Positions 1,596-35,950 of a DNA stretch of 42,262 nt are shown in pieces; position 1 is the stretch's first letter, and each line of letters opens with the position of its first letter. The stretch lies in contig JAJRQB010000070.1 in assembly GCA_024280485.1 (NCBI GenBank), positions 1 through 42,262 of the forward strand, in the 5' to 3' direction. Below the pieces are notes generated by a model. It saw nothing but the letters and a program-made list of their open reading frames with translations. It did not search any database and was not told the origin of the DNA. The position numbers were made by a program, and so were the translations under genes. This DNA is from Deltaproteobacteria bacterium. Lineage in GTDB: Bacteria; Desulfobacterota; Desulfuromonadia; Desulfuromonadales; Geopsychrobacteraceae.

Positions 1596-2030
1596 TTACT
1601 TCTTCTTGCCCTTGGCGGCACGGGCCTTAGCAAGTCCGCCAGCCAGGTCTTTATCAAGAGCCATTTGCCGTCTGCTCTCAATATAATCTTTGGCGGCCAA
1701 AGTCGTACCAGCGGGAATATCAAACATAGTTCGGTACTCTTTTGGGGTCATTTCATGTGACGTACCCAGATGTCTTTTAAGAGTAACGAATCCCTTACCA
1801 CAAACCATGCAAGTGATCTGCTTCTTACCAAATGCCTTCCGCTTTGAAATGACAGGGGCAGTAGATGCAAGCTCTTCTTCCCCAACAACTGGAGCAGCTT
1901 CACCTTTATCCATTGCAGACAATGCGGCATGTAGTTCTTTTAGTTCCGTAAAAAGTTCATCTTTTGTCATCTCTGTTGACGCTGCATGTGCTGATACAAT
2001 TTTTGCGGCTAATTCAGTAATAGTGGCCAT
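1596..2030 (-). CDS. MucR/Ros family zinc-finger transcriptional regulator
   Basis: A 144-residue DNA-binding protein. Residues ~1-60 are an acidic, helical N-terminal region. The C-terminal half carries the Ros/MucR-type finger CMVCGKGFVTLKRHLGTSH followed by the family hallmark MTPKEYR and a basic tail ending AKGKKK. MucR/Ros proteins bind AT-rich promoter DNA and usually repress surface or exopolysaccharide genes and themselves; the target here is unknown. The gene is divergent from the octaheme cytochrome gene across a 648-bp AT-rich region, so it may act there. It stands alone, with its own terminator. Family assignment is firm; function is inferred. Confidence 0.88.
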   Translation of the reverse strand: MATITELAAKIVSAHAASTEMTKDELFTELKELHAALSAMDKGEAAPVVGEEELASTAPVISKRKAFGKKQITCMVCGKGFVTLKRHLGTSHEMTPKEYRTMFDIPAGTTLAAKDYIESRRQMALDKDLAGGLAKARAAKGKKK

Positions 2031-2678
2031 TTTTTATCCGTTGGTTAAAGTGAATGTTATATTGCATTCTGTAAAGGTAAAACATATTTATTGAATAAAT
2101 CAACACATGAAATAAATAAAAAAGAATCCCCAATAGACAGAATAGCCACAAATACTTTTAAACAAACAGAAACTTAAGAGTACAGCATCTTTTAACGAGC
2201 ATCAATTTCTTCCCAAACCTCAAGGTCCAAAAATATTGTCTCCGGCGGAAATGCTACGATCTGATGGCCATCAAAAGGTTGAGTCATCATCTGTGGTTGG
2301 AATTCATGATTCTAATCAAGGTCATACCTATAACTAACCACTGAGATTCATGATTTGTGTAGACTTTCAGCTGCTCACAGTAGAACAATTAATTCAGATC
2401 ACCCTTCACATAAAACCTTACCGTGACACCTCTTTCAAATCCTCATCACAACACTCATGCACATCTTGACCTAGGTCAAAGAAATAGAATAAGAACTCTT
2501 TTATCTTGCCCATGCAAAGAGACCGTTGACCCACGCCAACCACTTGACAGCCTCCGATTACCTGTTCTAGTTAGTGAGTCCAAATCCTACCAAGAAGAAG
2601 ATGTCACTTTCTAAGCTGTAGAAATCTATATCTGCCTACATTCTGTTGCTTGCTCACTCTAACCCTGGGAGGCTTTCC
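2031..2678. other. Divergent control region between mucR-like gene and octaheme cytochrome gene
   Basis: This 648-bp stretch has no convincing gene. It is AT-rich near the regulator (about 2060-2170). It holds two copies of ATTCATGATT at 2302-2311 and 2346-2355, spaced 44 bp (about four helical turns), and the TTGACC/GGTCAA palindrome described separately. A 63-codon reading frame at 2423-2614 lacks a ribosome-binding site and recognisable protein features, and I do not call it a gene. Confidence 0.6.
2466..2507 (+). promoter_or_regulatory. HcpR-like operator and class II-type promoter of the octaheme cytochrome gene
   Basis: TTGACCTAGGTCAA at 2466-2479 is a perfect 14-bp palindrome. I recall a TTGACC-NN-GGTCAA core for HcpR, the CRP/FNR-family regulator controlling hcp and nitrosative-stress genes in deltaproteobacteria. 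A site centred at 2472.5 acting at -41.5 would put the start near 2514, and TATCTT (2502-2507, 4 of 6 matches to TATAAT) sits where the -10 box is then expected. The palindrome is seen directly; the regulator and promoter are inferred. The implied 5' leader is about 165 nt. Confidence 0.6.
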
Positions 2679-4283
2679 ATGAACAAGGTCAAGGTTACAT
2701 CTGTTTTAATGTCTGCGTTGCTGGCAGTTCTGCTATGTATCAGCAGTGCTTATGCTGTCGCGGATATCGACAAGGACACCCAAAAATGTATTACCTGCCA
2801 TCTCGCTAACAAGATGGCACCAAAAATGATCGAAATGTGGGAAAATTCAAAACATGCGGAAAACGGTGTCGGTTGCCTCGCTTGTCACCAGGCAGAGAAG
2901 GGCGAGTTTGATGCCTTTGAACATAACGGTTTCACTGTTGGACTCTATCCAACACCGAAAGACTGTTCTCAGTGTCACGAAAAAGAAGTAACTGAACACA
3001 CCAAGTCGAAGCATGCTTATCAATTCTGGCTCTATGCCCCTGCCGACCGCGCTATTTTTGAGCCGATTATCGGCACCAAACAAGGCTGTGAATCCTGTCA
3101 CAACATCTCCAACCAGTGGCCTGACGGCTCAATTGGAGAGTGCGATGCCTGTCATCCCAAGCACAGCTTCTCTATCGAGGTTGCCCGGACACCGCAAACC
3201 TGCGGCGAGTGCCACTTAGGTCCTGATCATCCGCATATCGAAATCTATAACGAATCGAAGCATGGCAACATCTACGCAGCACTAGGCGACAAATGGGACC
3301 TCTCCTATCGCTCTGATGATTTCGAGAATATTCCCATTGAAGCACCAGTCTGCACCACCTGTCACATGGATGCTGTCGGCGATATGAAATCGACCCATAA
3401 CGTCTCCGCGCGTCTGGGCTGGGAATCTCAAGCTCCATGGTCTTATCGCACTATCTGGTTTGAAGAAGAGTTGGGAAGCTGGCAAGACAAGACTCAACGG
3501 ATGCAGAATGTCTGTGCTAACTGCCACGCACCGACCTTCATCAAAGATCACTTCCTCGCTTATGACCTGGTTAACTTGCAGTACAACGAAATACGTCGTG
3601 CATTCCTCTATTGGGTTAAGCTCTACGTCAAAGAAGGGCTGATCAAGCCACTCAAAGAGACCTTTAACGACGGCAAGGAGAGAGCTCAGTCGCAACTGGT
3701 CATCAACGCTGGCTGGTACACCACAGCTTCAGAGATGATGTACAACGGATGGCATCATGAAGGTCGTCGCTTCCGTCACGGTGCTGCCATGGGTGGTGCT
3801 GACTATGTACAGTGGCACGGCGTCTGGGAACTGCAGCATGACATGCAGGAGATGATCAACTGGGGTGCTGAGCATGGTGTCGAGGAAGCTATGAAGATTG
3901 CTGAATCTGATTCTCCGGCTAAATTCTTCCCCTACAAACTCTATGATTTCCCTGGTGGCGTATATTCCATCTCGACCAAAGAGAATCAGGGCGTAACAAC
4001 AACCCAACAGTACATTCCCGACTACTGGGAAAAAGTTAAAGCCAACGTCGAGCAAGCCTACAAAAAAGGCTTCCTCACCAAGGTAGCGTGGGATCGCTGG
4101 ATGGAGCGTTACAACAACAAGGACCATTTCGATGGAACCAAATATGGTTCACATCCACTCTATGGCCCTTACAATGAGCGCAAGAAATTAGAGTTGAACT
4201 TGAAGGATCCGAATTCACCCTTGAGCCAGGCGATCAATATCAACCTGCCGTCTCCATCTCCGGCCGAAGAAAAGATCAAGTAA
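2679..4283 (+). CDS. Octaheme c-type cytochrome of the hydroxylamine oxidoreductase (HAO) family
   Basis: A 534-residue periplasmic multiheme redox enzyme. It has a signal peptide (residues ~1-26, cleaved after SSAYA) and exactly eight CXXCH motifs, at residues 37, 66, 96, 137, 155, 175, 225 and 279, the octaheme HAO arrangement. The region after the last heme has family stretches such as HEGRRFRHGAAM (~360-371) and GADYVQWHG (~373-381). No C-terminal membrane helix is visible. The start ATG at 2679 is chosen over an upstream in-frame TTG at 2646 because GGGAGG (2667-2672) lies 6 nt ahead and the signal peptide starts here. Relatives either oxidise hydroxylamine or hydrazine or reduce nitrite/hydroxylamine. 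In an anaerobe without an adjacent ammonia-oxidation system a reductive or detoxifying role is more likely. Whether the P460 cross-linking tyrosine is present needs an alignment; Y376 is a candidate. No NapC/NrfH-type quinol partner is adjacent. Confidence 0.93.
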   Translation: MNKVKVTSVLMSALLAVLLCISSAYAVADIDKDTQKCITCHLANKMAPKMIEMWENSKHAENGVGCLACHQAEKGEFDAFEHNGFTVGLYPTPKDCSQCHEKEVTEHTKSKHAYQFWLYAPADRAIFEPIIGTKQGCESCHNISNQWPDGSIGECDACHPKHSFSIEVARTPQTCGECHLGPDHPHIEIYNESKHGNIYAALGDKWDLSYRSDDFENIPIEAPVCTTCHMDAVGDMKSTHNVSARLGWESQAPWSYRTIWFEEELGSWQDKTQRMQNVCANCHAPTFIKDHFLAYDLVNLQYNEIRRAFLYWVKLYVKEGLIKPLKETFNDGKERAQSQLVINAGWYTTASEMMYNGWHHEGRRFRHGAAMGGADYVQWHGVWELQHDMQEMINWGAEHGVEEAMKIAESDSPAKFFPYKLYDFPGGVYSISTKENQGVTTTQQYIPDYWEKVKANVEQAYKKGFLTKVAWDRWMERYNNKDHFDGTKYGSHPLYGPYNERKKLELNLKDPNSPLSQAININLPSPSPAEEKIK

Positions 4284-4381: not shown

Positions 4382-4900
4382 ATGATGAAAAAAGCTCTAA
4401 GTACAACATTGGTTTTTCTTTTAACTGCTGTTTTTTCAACGGCAGCCTATGCCTCCAACGAGAACATCGTCGCCAGTCTGGATAGTAAAAAAGTTACAGT
4501 AGAGGTCTTGACAACCTATGTCGAAGATGTGGCAGGAGACAACTACAAGTCATGGCTCCGAGATAAGGTTGGCCTCCGTAAACTAGCTGACTTTTATATT
4601 AATCGTACGCTCCTGCTTAAGTACGCAAAACTGAATGTCGACAAAAAAAATACCATCGTCACGAATCACAGTGCCCGGAGTGTTGATGCAGACGCCATGC
4701 TTCTCTCTTCACTGCTGCAAAGTGAAATTCAGGACAAGGTCAATGTCACGGATGAAGCTGTCCGTGCCTACATGGTAGAAAAGAAAATCACCTCTGAAAA
4801 GCTGGCCAGACAAGAGATTGAATCTGACCTTAAAAACGAACTGATGGGTGTTTTGGTTGAAAAGGTCCGTAGTGGACACAAAATTGAGTATTTGAATTAA
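4382..4900 (+). CDS. Small secreted protein resembling the SurA/PpiC N-terminal chaperone domain
   Basis: 172 residues with a signal peptide (MMKKALSTTLVFLLTAVFSTAAYA) and an all-helical mature part. The layout ASLDSKKVTVEVLTTYVEDVAG, then DFYINRTLLLKYAKLN and later NVTDEAVRAYMVEK, resembles the N-terminal region of SurA and PpiC-type proteins. There is no parvulin peptidyl-prolyl isomerase domain, and the protein ends where one would begin, so a chaperone-only role is possible. GGGAG at 4367-4371 supports the first of two tandem ATG codons. It sits 98 bp after the octaheme cytochrome with the same orientation and is followed by a clear terminator, so it may help fold or heme-load that cytochrome. 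Identification is by pattern only; treat it as a hypothetical periplasmic protein. Confidence 0.72.
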   Translation: MMKKALSTTLVFLLTAVFSTAAYASNENIVASLDSKKVTVEVLTTYVEDVAGDNYKSWLRDKVGLRKLADFYINRTLLLKYAKLNVDKKNTIVTNHSARSVDADAMLLSSLLQSEIQDKVNVTDEAVRAYMVEKKITSEKLARQEIESDLKNELMGVLVEKVRSGHKIEYLN

Positions 4901-33733: not shown

Positions 33734-35950
33734 ATGAAATTTCTCAGCCCCAAGACATTGCTGTTGCTCGTCATCGCAGGCGTAGTGGCAGCATTTTTCA
33801 TCTTTGATCTTGGTCAATATCTAACTCTCGACTACCTCAAACAGCAACAAGCGGCGTTTGACAGCCTCTACCAGCAGAATCGCTTCACTATGCTGGGTGC
33901 TTATGCACTCATCTATATTTTAGTGACCGCTCTTTCACTGCCAGGCGCTACCATCATGACTCTGGCTGGTGGTGCTTTCTTTGGCCTCTGGACAGCTTTG
34001 CTGGTCGTCAGCTTTGCGAGTAGCATCGGTGCAACCCTCGCGTTTCTGGTTTCGCGTTTCTTGTTGCGTGACTGGGTCCAGGCACGCTTCGGCGACAAAC
34101 TCTCATCCATCAATCAGGGCGTTGAAAAAGAAGGGGCATTCTACCTTTTCTCATTAAGACTGGTCCCTATTTTCCCCTTCTTCGTTATTAACCTGGCGAT
34201 GGGTCTGACCCCATTAAAAGCAGGTCTTTTCTATATCGTAAGTCAGGTCGGCATGCTACCGGGAACCTTTGTCTATATCAATGCCGGCACCCAGATTGGA
34301 CAACTCGAATCGGCCGCAGGCATCCTCTCATTGCCGATGATCCTCAGCTTTGCCATGCTCGGTATTTTCCCGCTGCTGGCAAAAAAAATTATCGACCTCA
34401 TCAAGGCACGCAAGGTCTATGCAAACTATGACCGCCCTAAAAGTTTCGATTACAACCTGGTGGTTCTCGGTGGTGGTAGCGCCGGGCTGGTATCTTCACT
34501 CATCGGTAGTGCGGTCAAGGCCAAAGTCGCGCTGATCGAAAAAGATAAAATGGGTGGCGACTGTCTTAATACCGGCTGTGTACCGAGCAAGGCGCTGATC
34601 CGCAGTGCTAAAATGCTCTCCTACGCCAAACGAGCGACCGAGTTCGGCTTCAAAAGCACCAAGGTTAAATTTGATTTTGCAGATGTGATGGAACGCGTAC
34701 AGCGAGTGATCGCTAAAGTAGAGCCGCACGATTCTGCAGAACGCTTTGAAAGCCTCGGGGTAGAGGTCATTCAGGGCACAGCGATGATCAAGGATCCCTG
34801 GACGATAGAGGTCAATGGTCGCACTTTGACCACCCGCAATATTATTGTCTCGACCGGTGCACGTCCATTTGTCCCACCGATCAAAGGGCTGGAGCAGGTC
34901 GAGTATCTGACCTCTGACAACATCTGGCAGTTGCGTGAGCTCCCTGAAAAATTTATCGTGCTGGGTGGTGGGCCAATCGGCAGCGAGATGACCCAGGCTT
35001 TTGCCCGCCTCGGCAGCCAGGTCACCCAGGTCGAAATGGGTGAACGGTTAATCGGCCGTGAAGACCCGGAGGTCGGCGATTATATCCGCGCGAAATTTGA
35101 GGATGAAGGAGTCAACGTACTAACCGGGCATGCTGCACAAGAAGTCAGTGTCCGCGATGGCAAAAATTTCCTGCTCTGTGAGCACGCAGGCGAACAGGTC
35201 GAAATCGAGTTCGATCGCATTCTGATCGCTGTCGGTCGGCGCGCCAATGTTGAAGGCTTTGGCCTGCAGGAACTCGGCATCGAGCTCAATCCACAGGGGA
35301 CTATCACAGCCGATCCTTTTTTACGCACCAATTACCCTAACATCCTCTGTGCCGGTGATGTCACCGGTCCCTACCAATTCACTCATACTGCAGGTCATCA
35401 AGCCTGGTACGCCGTTGTTAACGCGCTGTTCGGGGCGCTTAAAAGCTTCAAGGTCGACTATCGCGTAGTGCCCTGGTGCACCTTCACTGACGCCGAAGTC
35501 GCACGGGTCGGGCTGAGTGAAACCGAGGCGCAAGAGCAGAAGATCCCTTACGAGGTTACCCGCTACAACCTGGATGATCTCGACCGCGCGATTGCCGACA
35601 GCGAAGACCACGGCTGGGTTAAGGTCCTGACCAAGCCGGGCAAGGATAAAATTCTTGGCGTGACGATTGTCGGGTCTCACGCCGGCGATCTGCTCTCTGA
35701 ATTTGTCCTGGCAATGAAGTATAATTTGGGGCTCAACAAAATTCTTGGCACCATCCACAGCTATCCAACACTCTCTGAAATGAACAAGATGGCTGCCGGA
35801 CAATGGAAGAAGAACCATATCCCTGAAAACCTGCTGGTCTGGGTCGAACGCTATCTCCGCTGGCAACGGGGCGAGAAAGGAGGTCCTGATGAAACTGCTA
35901 CTGAGCATGCTGCTGATCTTGCTGACAGCAACCAGCGCACTGGCCTTTGA
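33734..35950 (+). CDS. TVP38/TMEM64 (DedA-like) membrane domain fused to a FAD pyridine-nucleotide disulphide oxidoreductase
   Basis: 738 residues in two parts. Residues ~1-230 are a TVP38/TMEM64 (VTT) membrane domain with about six hydrophobic segments, including GATIMTLAGGAFFG and LRLVPIFPFFVINLAMGL. From ~240 follows a complete flavin reductase like mercuric reductase or dihydrolipoamide dehydrogenase: FAD motif LVVLGGGSAGLVSS, redox pair GGDCLNTGCVPSK, NAD(P) motif FIVLGGGPIGSEM, FAD motif ILCAGDVTG and the dimer-interface HSYPTLSEMNK. The MerA metal-binding C-terminal cysteine pair is absent. ATG at 33734 has AAGGAGG 5 nt upstream. The fusion would place a disulphide reductase at the inner membrane; its substrate is unknown. 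It overlaps the DUF547 gene by 62 nt. Confidence 0.92.
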   Translation: MKFLSPKTLLLLVIAGVVAAFFIFDLGQYLTLDYLKQQQAAFDSLYQQNRFTMLGAYALIYILVTALSLPGATIMTLAGGAFFGLWTALLVVSFASSIGATLAFLVSRFLLRDWVQARFGDKLSSINQGVEKEGAFYLFSLRLVPIFPFFVINLAMGLTPLKAGLFYIVSQVGMLPGTFVYINAGTQIGQLESAAGILSLPMILSFAMLGIFPLLAKKIIDLIKARKVYANYDRPKSFDYNLVVLGGGSAGLVSSLIGSAVKAKVALIEKDKMGGDCLNTGCVPSKALIRSAKMLSYAKRATEFGFKSTKVKFDFADVMERVQRVIAKVEPHDSAERFESLGVEVIQGTAMIKDPWTIEVNGRTLTTRNIIVSTGARPFVPPIKGLEQVEYLTSDNIWQLRELPEKFIVLGGGPIGSEMTQAFARLGSQVTQVEMGERLIGREDPEVGDYIRAKFEDEGVNVLTGHAAQEVSVRDGKNFLLCEHAGEQVEIEFDRILIAVGRRANVEGFGLQELGIELNPQGTITADPFLRTNYPNILCAGDVTGPYQFTHTAGHQAWYAVVNALFGALKSFKVDYRVVPWCTFTDAEVARVGLSETEAQEQKIPYEVTRYNLDDLDRAIADSEDHGWVKVLTKPGKDKILGVTIVGSHAGDLLSEFVLAMKYNLGLNKILGTIHSYPTLSEMNKMAAGQWKKNHIPENLLVWVERYLRWQRGEKGGPDETATEHAADLADSNQRTGL

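Follow-up and report, generated by a model that had tools for sequence, protein, structure and literature searches.

An octaheme cytochrome of the HAO superfamily behind an HcpR-type operator: a probable substitute for NrfA in a Geopsychrobacteraceae genome

Known systems and the OCC1 locus

The locus described here encodes OCC1, an octaheme c-type cytochrome of the hydroxylamine oxidoreductase (HAO) superfamily, behind an HcpR-type operator in a 42,262-nucleotide stretch (hereafter the window; contig JAJRQB010000070.1 of assembly GCA_024280485.1, a Desulfuromonadales bacterium of the family Geopsychrobacteraceae). Among the closest described systems is the reverse hydroxylamine:ubiquinone reductase module (reverse-HURM) of Nautilia profundicola (Campylobacterota), in which a relative of HAO is proposed for nitrite and Hcp for hydroxylamine, as in the OCC1 case, and which coexists with NrfAH in one genome sequence only, a likeness to the exclusion of OCC1 and NrfA reported below (PMC3701875). 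The Hao of Campylobacterota is reported to have a Met/Trp pattern like that of OCC1 (PMC8940962), a likeness taken from the published description and not from a direct sequence comparison. The OCC1 system differs from these in belonging to another phylum, in having Nar instead of Nap, in its HcpR-type operator and in a small partner protein within the cassette.

Other HAO relatives and octahemes have been connected with nitrite. The HAOr-type enzyme of Kuenenia stuttgartiensis, without the Tyr cross-link and nitrite-reducing (via PMC8940962, PMC12758564), belongs to anammox metabolism and is said to form NO, whereas the product of OCC1 is a prediction. For the NrfA-less Thermosulfurimonas, Dissulfuribacter and Desulfurivibrio dismutans, octahemes, some of them HaoA homologues, are the candidates put forward for the nitrite step (PMC5276818, PMC12142623); the link was made there by gene content, neighbourhood or proteomics, the accessible text of these reports mentions neither an HcpR operator nor a within-genus exchange with nrfA, and in D. 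dismutans one enzyme belongs to the CxxCK type, unlike OCC1.

On the regulatory side, a 2005 comparative study gives wyTTGACnnnnGTCAArw as the delta-proteobacterial HcpR motif outside Desulfovibrio, ties the changed third motif position to Ser or Pro replacing R180, and lists the targets hcp, frdX, nrfHA, ndh and nar (PMC1274295). The Desulfuromonas/Geobacter regulon of that study shares with the present one its motif, recognition residues and hcp and nar targets, but its nitrite-step target is nrfHA, and the cytochrome c-like genes it mentions are unnamed. An OCC1-type gene may be among the latter, so that the present finding may have been partly foreshadowed. The parts of the system are of known kinds. 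For their combination, in which an HAO-type reductase occupies the place of nrfA within an HcpR regulon, no report turned up in the accessible portions of the literature on octaheme, HAO, nrfA and Desulfuromonas, which is not proof that none exists.

We consider it probable that OCC1 is a periplasmic, reductive octaheme enzyme of the HAO superfamily that replaces NrfA, the usual pentaheme enzyme for reducing nitrite to ammonium, in the HcpR regulon. The observations in question are the operator and its conservation, its recurrence ahead of hcp and nar, the gene for the regulator, the exclusion of NrfA in the searched genomes, and two sister genomes in which nrfA carries this operator as well. 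Under this proposal HcpR would activate nar, OCC1 and hcp together; Nar would reduce nitrate to nitrite, OCC1 would turn nitrite (or NO) into hydroxylamine or ammonium in the periplasm, and Hcp would clear leaked NO or hydroxylamine in the cytoplasm. If this is true, an HAO-family enzyme carries out the nitrite step of ammonification (or NO defence) without NrfA and under the same NO-sensing switch, nrfA-based counts underestimate ammonification, and annotating such genes as hydroxylamine-oxidising gives the wrong direction. The exchange among close relatives would also offer natural pairs for comparing HAO-type with NrfA-type reductases. Features of the locus are collected in Table 1.

Table 1. 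Positions of the OCC1 gene and its associated elements within the window.
Feature	Position	Strand	Remarks
HcpR-type operator TTGACCTAGGTCAA	2466-2479	.	Perfect 14-bp palindrome; from sequence and conservation
-10-like TATCTT	2502-2507	+	Starts 22 nt past the operator; class II CRP/FNR activator geometry
Second promoter-like element TTGACA-N16-TCTAGT	2544-2571	+	In the leader; kept in six aligned upstream regions
Shine-Dalgarno-like GGGAGG	2667-2672	+	From sequence; GGAGG invariant in six aligned orthologues
OCC1, octaheme c-type cytochrome, HAO superfamily	2679-4283	+	534 aa; 8 CxxCH, no CxxCK; signal peptide by eye
Partner protein	4382-4900	+	172 aa; signal peptide by eye; directly 3' of OCC1

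The operator and its regulator

A genome-wide scan (4.14 Mb, 178 contigs) found TTGACCNNGGTCAA exactly once, at 2466-2479, and at 33 places with at most one mismatch, for which the context was read only where TTGAC-N4-GTCAA was exact. Six matches to the palindrome with at most two mismatches occurred in the window against 1.78 expected, a number reached in three of 100 shuffles, and the only exact one was that at 2466-2479; a one-mismatch site at 33804 lies within an open reading frame (ORF) and was set aside. A sequence-only reading of this DNA had described a perfect palindrome with a -10-like TATCTT at the right distance for a CRP/FNR-type activator, and both descriptions hold. By geometry, transcription would be expected to start near 2514, with the palindrome centred at -41.5. 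This start is tentative, because the second promoter-like element is also conserved; a generic sigma-70 scan picked up neither element. Rfam (gathering threshold) and tRNA scans of the whole window gave no match.

Conservation was assessed in nine orthologous upstream regions (at least 80% identity: the own genome, G069, G016, G017, G018, G020, G024, G048 and locus L023). Thirteen loci were available initially; L026, which is on the same contig as G011, and L032 were excluded from this comparison as they begin inside the gene or near its edge. The exact operator is present in seven of the nine. Across six aligned regions, whose pairwise identity falls to 52%, the ten bases of the operator arms show no variation at all; over the whole alignment, 83 of 253 columns are invariant. 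The 22-nt spacing is kept in six orthologues, the hexamer being TACCTT, TAACTT (three times), TAACCT or TAGGGT (G024).

The own genome contains four HTH_Crp_2 matches, of which two are strong and belong to full-length CRP/FNR proteins. One of these, a 227-aa protein (C77:5194-5877) with a DNR protein as its closest solved structure, carries the recognition helix GTVSETLSR with S180, E181 and R185. Because the helix fits the published rule, orthologues are present in relatives, and frdX-like neighbours carry sites, this protein can be assigned as HcpR with good confidence, so that the regulator expected from the operator does have a candidate gene in the genome. Orthologues with at least 60% identity were found in 12 of 14 genomes searched, namely all nine with OCC1 together with G012, G015 and G065, and at this threshold none was found in G019 and G047. 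The helix is kept in all 11 of the 12 orthologues that were read (G011 excepted). An frdX-like ferredoxin gene lies near hcpR in G016, G018 and G012, and an exact site precedes its ORF by 97-98 nt in the first two and by 78 nt in G012; the hcpR contig of G020 has no exact site within the 8 kb read.

TTGAC-N4-GTCAA occurs six times in the genome and its reversed control also six times, so the copy number is uninformative, and placement and conservation carry the weight. Three of the six exact sites are intergenic, lying before hcp, before a di-heme cytochrome-narGHJI-narK operon (narG called by TIGR01580, the remaining nar genes by eye) and before OCC1; exact sites occur at roughly 0.0006 per 400 bp. 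Looking for this operator type at other genes, as the sequence-only reading had suggested, thus had a positive outcome, with sites at hcp and nar of the own genome and at nrfA of two sister genomes. In silico, the assignment to HcpR is strongly supported. The nar site is located between divergent genes, and the other gene, starting about 20 nt away, could be served too; the hexamer spacing suits the nar direction only. A TAnnnT hexamer follows 22 nt downstream of the sites at the own OCC1, hcp and nar and at the frdX-like genes of G016 and G018. The own OCC3 operon has a one-mismatch site. The exact sites in C69, C85 and C147 fall within coding sequence (lptC-, pcm- and hrcA-like by eye) and were treated as chance occurrences.

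A different CRP/FNR protein, or none, could bind the palindrome, in which case a role assigned from regulation would fail. The genome does encode a second full CRP/FNR protein (L017), and the lack of enrichment over the control is compatible with such a view, but the helix of this protein, starting GASREAVAEQ, has a CRP-like Arg-Glu that by the published rule suits G at site position 3 (PMC1274295). Moreover, the ten arm bases stay invariant while their flanks drift, and the hcp and nar sites are those predicted for HcpR (PMC1274295). We regard this alternative as very unlikely and infer that HcpR binds at 2466-2479 as a nitric-oxide-sensing switch.

Beside hcpR, two loci carry an adjoining operon with an exact HcpR-type site (L114:6553-8983 and L115:5842-8254). 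Its products are a nine-CxxCH cytochrome and, as judged by eye, a putative lipoprotein. The own genome has a counterpart of these genes at L119:5158-7535.

The OCC1 protein and the direction of catalysis

Translation of OCC1 starts at ATG 2679, preceded by the GGGAGG. The protein matches PF13447 (2.7e-26, Pfam search), and its best solved relatives are PDB 4qo5 ('Hypothetical multiheme protein'), the closest by sequence, followed by HAO-like chains; with a profile of the OCC1 family, 4qo5 scored 181 bits and the HAO-like chains 84 to 104. We take 4qo5 to be the IhOCC of Ignicoccus hospitalis. It differs from OCC1, as read from the alignment, in having Phe at W379 and Asp-Val at D183-H184. The HDH equivalog score of OCC1 is 69 against a cut-off of 900, and its PF02335 score of 20.6 bits is below the cut-off of 24.1, which does not place it with NrfA or the CxxCK-type octaheme nitrite reductases (TvNiR, TaNiR), from which its eight CxxCH motifs and lack of CxxCK also set it apart. 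A few NrfAs carry CxxCH only, so the CxxCK motif alone is indecisive (PMC12285233).

Reductive Hao enzymes have Trp at the place of the cross-link Tyr of oxidative HAO and Met eight residues before it (PMC8940962). M371 and W379 of OCC1 fit this pattern and are invariant in 15 of 15 aligned proteins (seven OCC1, five of a group of 57% identical relatives and three of the paralogue OCC2), which gives moderate support for reduction. Another study instead gives His as the decisive residue of reductive forms and describes the majority of forms from organisms other than anammox bacteria as reductive (PMC12758564); in OCC1, H380 adjoins W379. D183-H184, invariant in all 15 proteins as well, aligns with the Asp-His pair of HAO. 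This pair presumably has an active-site role in HAO.

Membership of the HAO superfamily and the retained Asp-His pair would also suit an enzyme that oxidises hydroxylamine or hydrazine for energy, as would the invariant Y376, three residues before W379 in a weak mapping, and a change from reductive to oxidative function has been inferred within Desulfobacterota (PMC12758564). Against this, W379 apparently stands at the tyrosine place by the Met-8-Trp rule in 15 of 15 proteins, and OCC1 is controlled jointly with hcp and nar and exchanged with NrfA; oxidation therefore appears extremely unlikely. The sequence-only reading had assigned OCC1 to the octaheme HAO family, which the eight CxxCH motifs, the PF13447 match and the HAO-like PDB chains bear out, and had favoured nitrosative defence or nitrite/hydroxylamine reduction over energy-yielding oxidation. 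Its reductive part gains support from W379 at the apparent tyrosine place and from the lack of NrfA over cut-off in all nine carriers (below); nitrosative defence or nitrite/hydroxylamine reduction, or both, may apply.

Alternatively, OCC1 could conduct electrons or reduce some other acceptor (a sulfur oxyanion or a metal), having come under a stress promoter by chance. Stretches homologous to OCC1 are common, occurring in 107 of 136 genomes of the order, and a paralogue adjoins OCC1 in genus g18. The conservation of the Asp-His, Met and Trp residues, the exchange with NrfA and an operator common to hcp and nar argue against this account, which we judge to be distinctly improbable.

The partner gene immediately follows OCC1 in nine of nine orthologous loci with the downstream region read. 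The own copy of the 172-aa protein has no significant Pfam or PDB match, and its score of 20 bits against the ExtJ NCBIfam is below the cut-off of 52.5. At locus L030, which encodes a 57% relative of OCC1, the gene in the partner position matches SurA_N_2 (7.9e-8), and the partner is possibly a SurA-like assembly chaperone.

In genus g18 the octaheme paralogue OCC2 (L084:4418-5770, L085:6924-8300 and L096:817-2208) was observed next to OCC1 or close to nrfA; it is 37-38% identical to OCC1 in the alignment and 41-43% over the best stretch. The 57% relatives of OCC1 in L029, L030 and L031 follow genes that by eye are cytochrome b-like and Rieske-like, which suggests a quinol-linked version, and a histidine kinase and response regulator are found near them.

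Exchange with NrfA and spread of the cassette

Among 136 genomes of the order, OCC1 was counted as present at 80% identity or more and NrfA where PF02335 exceeded its cut-off. Nine genomes have OCC1, and none of these has NrfA, against 71 of the other 127 (Fisher p 0.00096, kinship ignored); a hand count of PF02335 matches above 100 bits gave 0 of 9 against 64 of 127 (p 0.0034, again ignoring kinship). Six carriers have sub-cut-off stretches, the best of 22.1 bits, while in the own genome there was no PF02335 match and hence no nrf-type gene detected by this family.

Both genes are distributed among close relatives. Genus g18 has OCC1 in G011, G016, G017, G018 and G020 and NrfA in G012, G015 and G019, with a contig-edge fragment in G013, and neither in G010 and G014 (59% and 71% complete). 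Genus g2 has OCC1 in G048 and NrfA in G047. In g1, OCC1 occurs in the own genome and G069 and NrfA in G065, six genomes having neither; G064, one of these six, has a 25-bit PF02335 stretch just over the cut-off, inside an octaheme homologue. The single genome of g20 carries OCC1. Genomes with NrfA and no OCC1 (G065, G047, G012, G015 and G019) are thus found in three of the four OCC1 genera. Cytochrome cd1 nitrite reductase did not exceed its cut-off in any of the 14 genomes examined for it, in a search whose control genomes were uninformative; three of the 14, among them the own, gave stretches scoring 20 to 23 bits. NirK, NirB and NapC/NrfH were not searched.

A role in detoxification only, with HcpR-controlled OCC1 scavenging NO or hydroxylamine released by other microbes or by side reactions of Nar and no respiratory ammonification of nitrite, is partly compatible with the nitrite-reducing role we favour. 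HcpR is linked to nitrosative stress in the literature as far as consulted, and NarG was not found in five of the nine OCC1 genomes (G016, G017, G018, G024 and G048), where the search gave short, weak stretches only and no search for Nap was made. This leaves room for a role purely in defence. However, two sister nrfA loci lie behind the same operator and no NrfA was found in OCC1 genomes, which points to the nitrite step, and NrfA itself can serve detoxification (PMC12285233). Taken together, detoxification alone seems unlikely to us, with an appreciable chance all the same. The substrate of OCC1 (nitrite or NO) and its product (hydroxylamine or ammonium) are predictions.

Several results weigh against OCC1 as a reductive substitute for NrfA under HcpR. 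Upstream of OCC1 in G048 and L023 a sigma-54-like -24/-12 element is present instead of the operator, and the exact operator is absent from four of six nrfA loci. The TAnnnT hexamer at exactly 22 nt is missing at two nrfA sites and at the OCC3 sites of relatives, and the own frdX-like gene has no exact site, only a variant with five central bases. NarG exceeds its cut-off in only three of the nine carriers (own, G069 and G011), with a partial match in G020. The exclusion is drawn mostly from draft genomes of four genera with kinship-blind Fisher tests, and G063 (g1), a one-contig genome with two NarG, lacks both OCC1 and NrfA, so both can be absent. Within the protein, Y376 is as invariant as W379, and the tyrosine place apparently falls on W379 (15 of 15) through a weak C-terminal alignment to 6h5l and the published motif rule, on which it rests because a PDB search with the C-terminal part alone gave no match. 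An AlphaFold model from the 15-row alignment was poor (mean predicted local distance difference test score 47.8, predicted template modelling score 0.35).

The six nrfA loci (L084, L087, L088, L089, L090 and L094) include two of the three PF02335 matches of G012 and leave uncounted the contig-cut fragment of G013. The exact operator precedes nrfA at L088 (G012) and L094 (G065). L090, from a genome without an HcpR orthologue, has a one-mismatch site, and L084 has a sigma-54-like element; neither of the remaining two showed an exact, one-mismatch or sigma-54-like site, the scan of L087 covering exact sites alone. The two types of promoter element found before OCC1 therefore occur before nrfA too. 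The sigma-54-like element of G048 and L023 agrees with 10 of 12 positions of the consensus, a count made without a shuffle control. At L023, OCC1 is divergent from genes for a Tll0287-domain histidine kinase and a sigma-54 response regulator (L023:1723-4632), and in G019 relatives of this pair (48 and 57% identical) adjoin nrfA (L089:3018-5956).

In g18, gene order was read around both enzymes. The order in G015 is c7-c5-c19-c8-c9-OCC2-c4-nrfA and in G020 c7-c5-c8-c9-OCC1-partner-OCC2-c4, followed by the contig end; G018 has the same upstream neighbours before OCC1-partner-OCC2 and no nrfA within the 13 kb read.

Horizontal movement was examined in G020, a g18 member from another family than the own genome. 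Identity to the own copy is 92% for its OCC1 and 61% for its HcpR; PrfC, the housekeeping control, is 77-78% identical to the own in its congeners and was not found in G020 itself. The OCC1 tree places G020 with g1 (83/85) and L023 (87/93), and the HcpR tree places it with G012 and G015 of g18. Placing the four g18 rows together was marginally rejected (approximately unbiased test, p-AU 0.042), the group having been chosen after the tree was seen. A transfer of OCC1 into G020 is therefore likely, and it was not shown for the other carriers; in G048 and G024 the OCC1 identities (84 and 80%) are close to those of the main PrfC stretch (87 and 81%).

More tentatively, a mobile cassette of octaheme reductase, partner and own HcpR operator might be spreading among Desulfuromonadales-like bacteria, repeatedly displacing NrfA and slotting into HcpR or sigma-54 two-component circuits also used for NrfA, in which case nrfA-based ammonification surveys would miss its carriers. 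We hold this broader idea to be possible, with rather less than even confidence.

Finally, a Ros/MucR-type regulator gene (window 1596-2030, minus strand) is oriented divergently to OCC1, with which it has the upstream region in common; this arrangement was also observed in G069.

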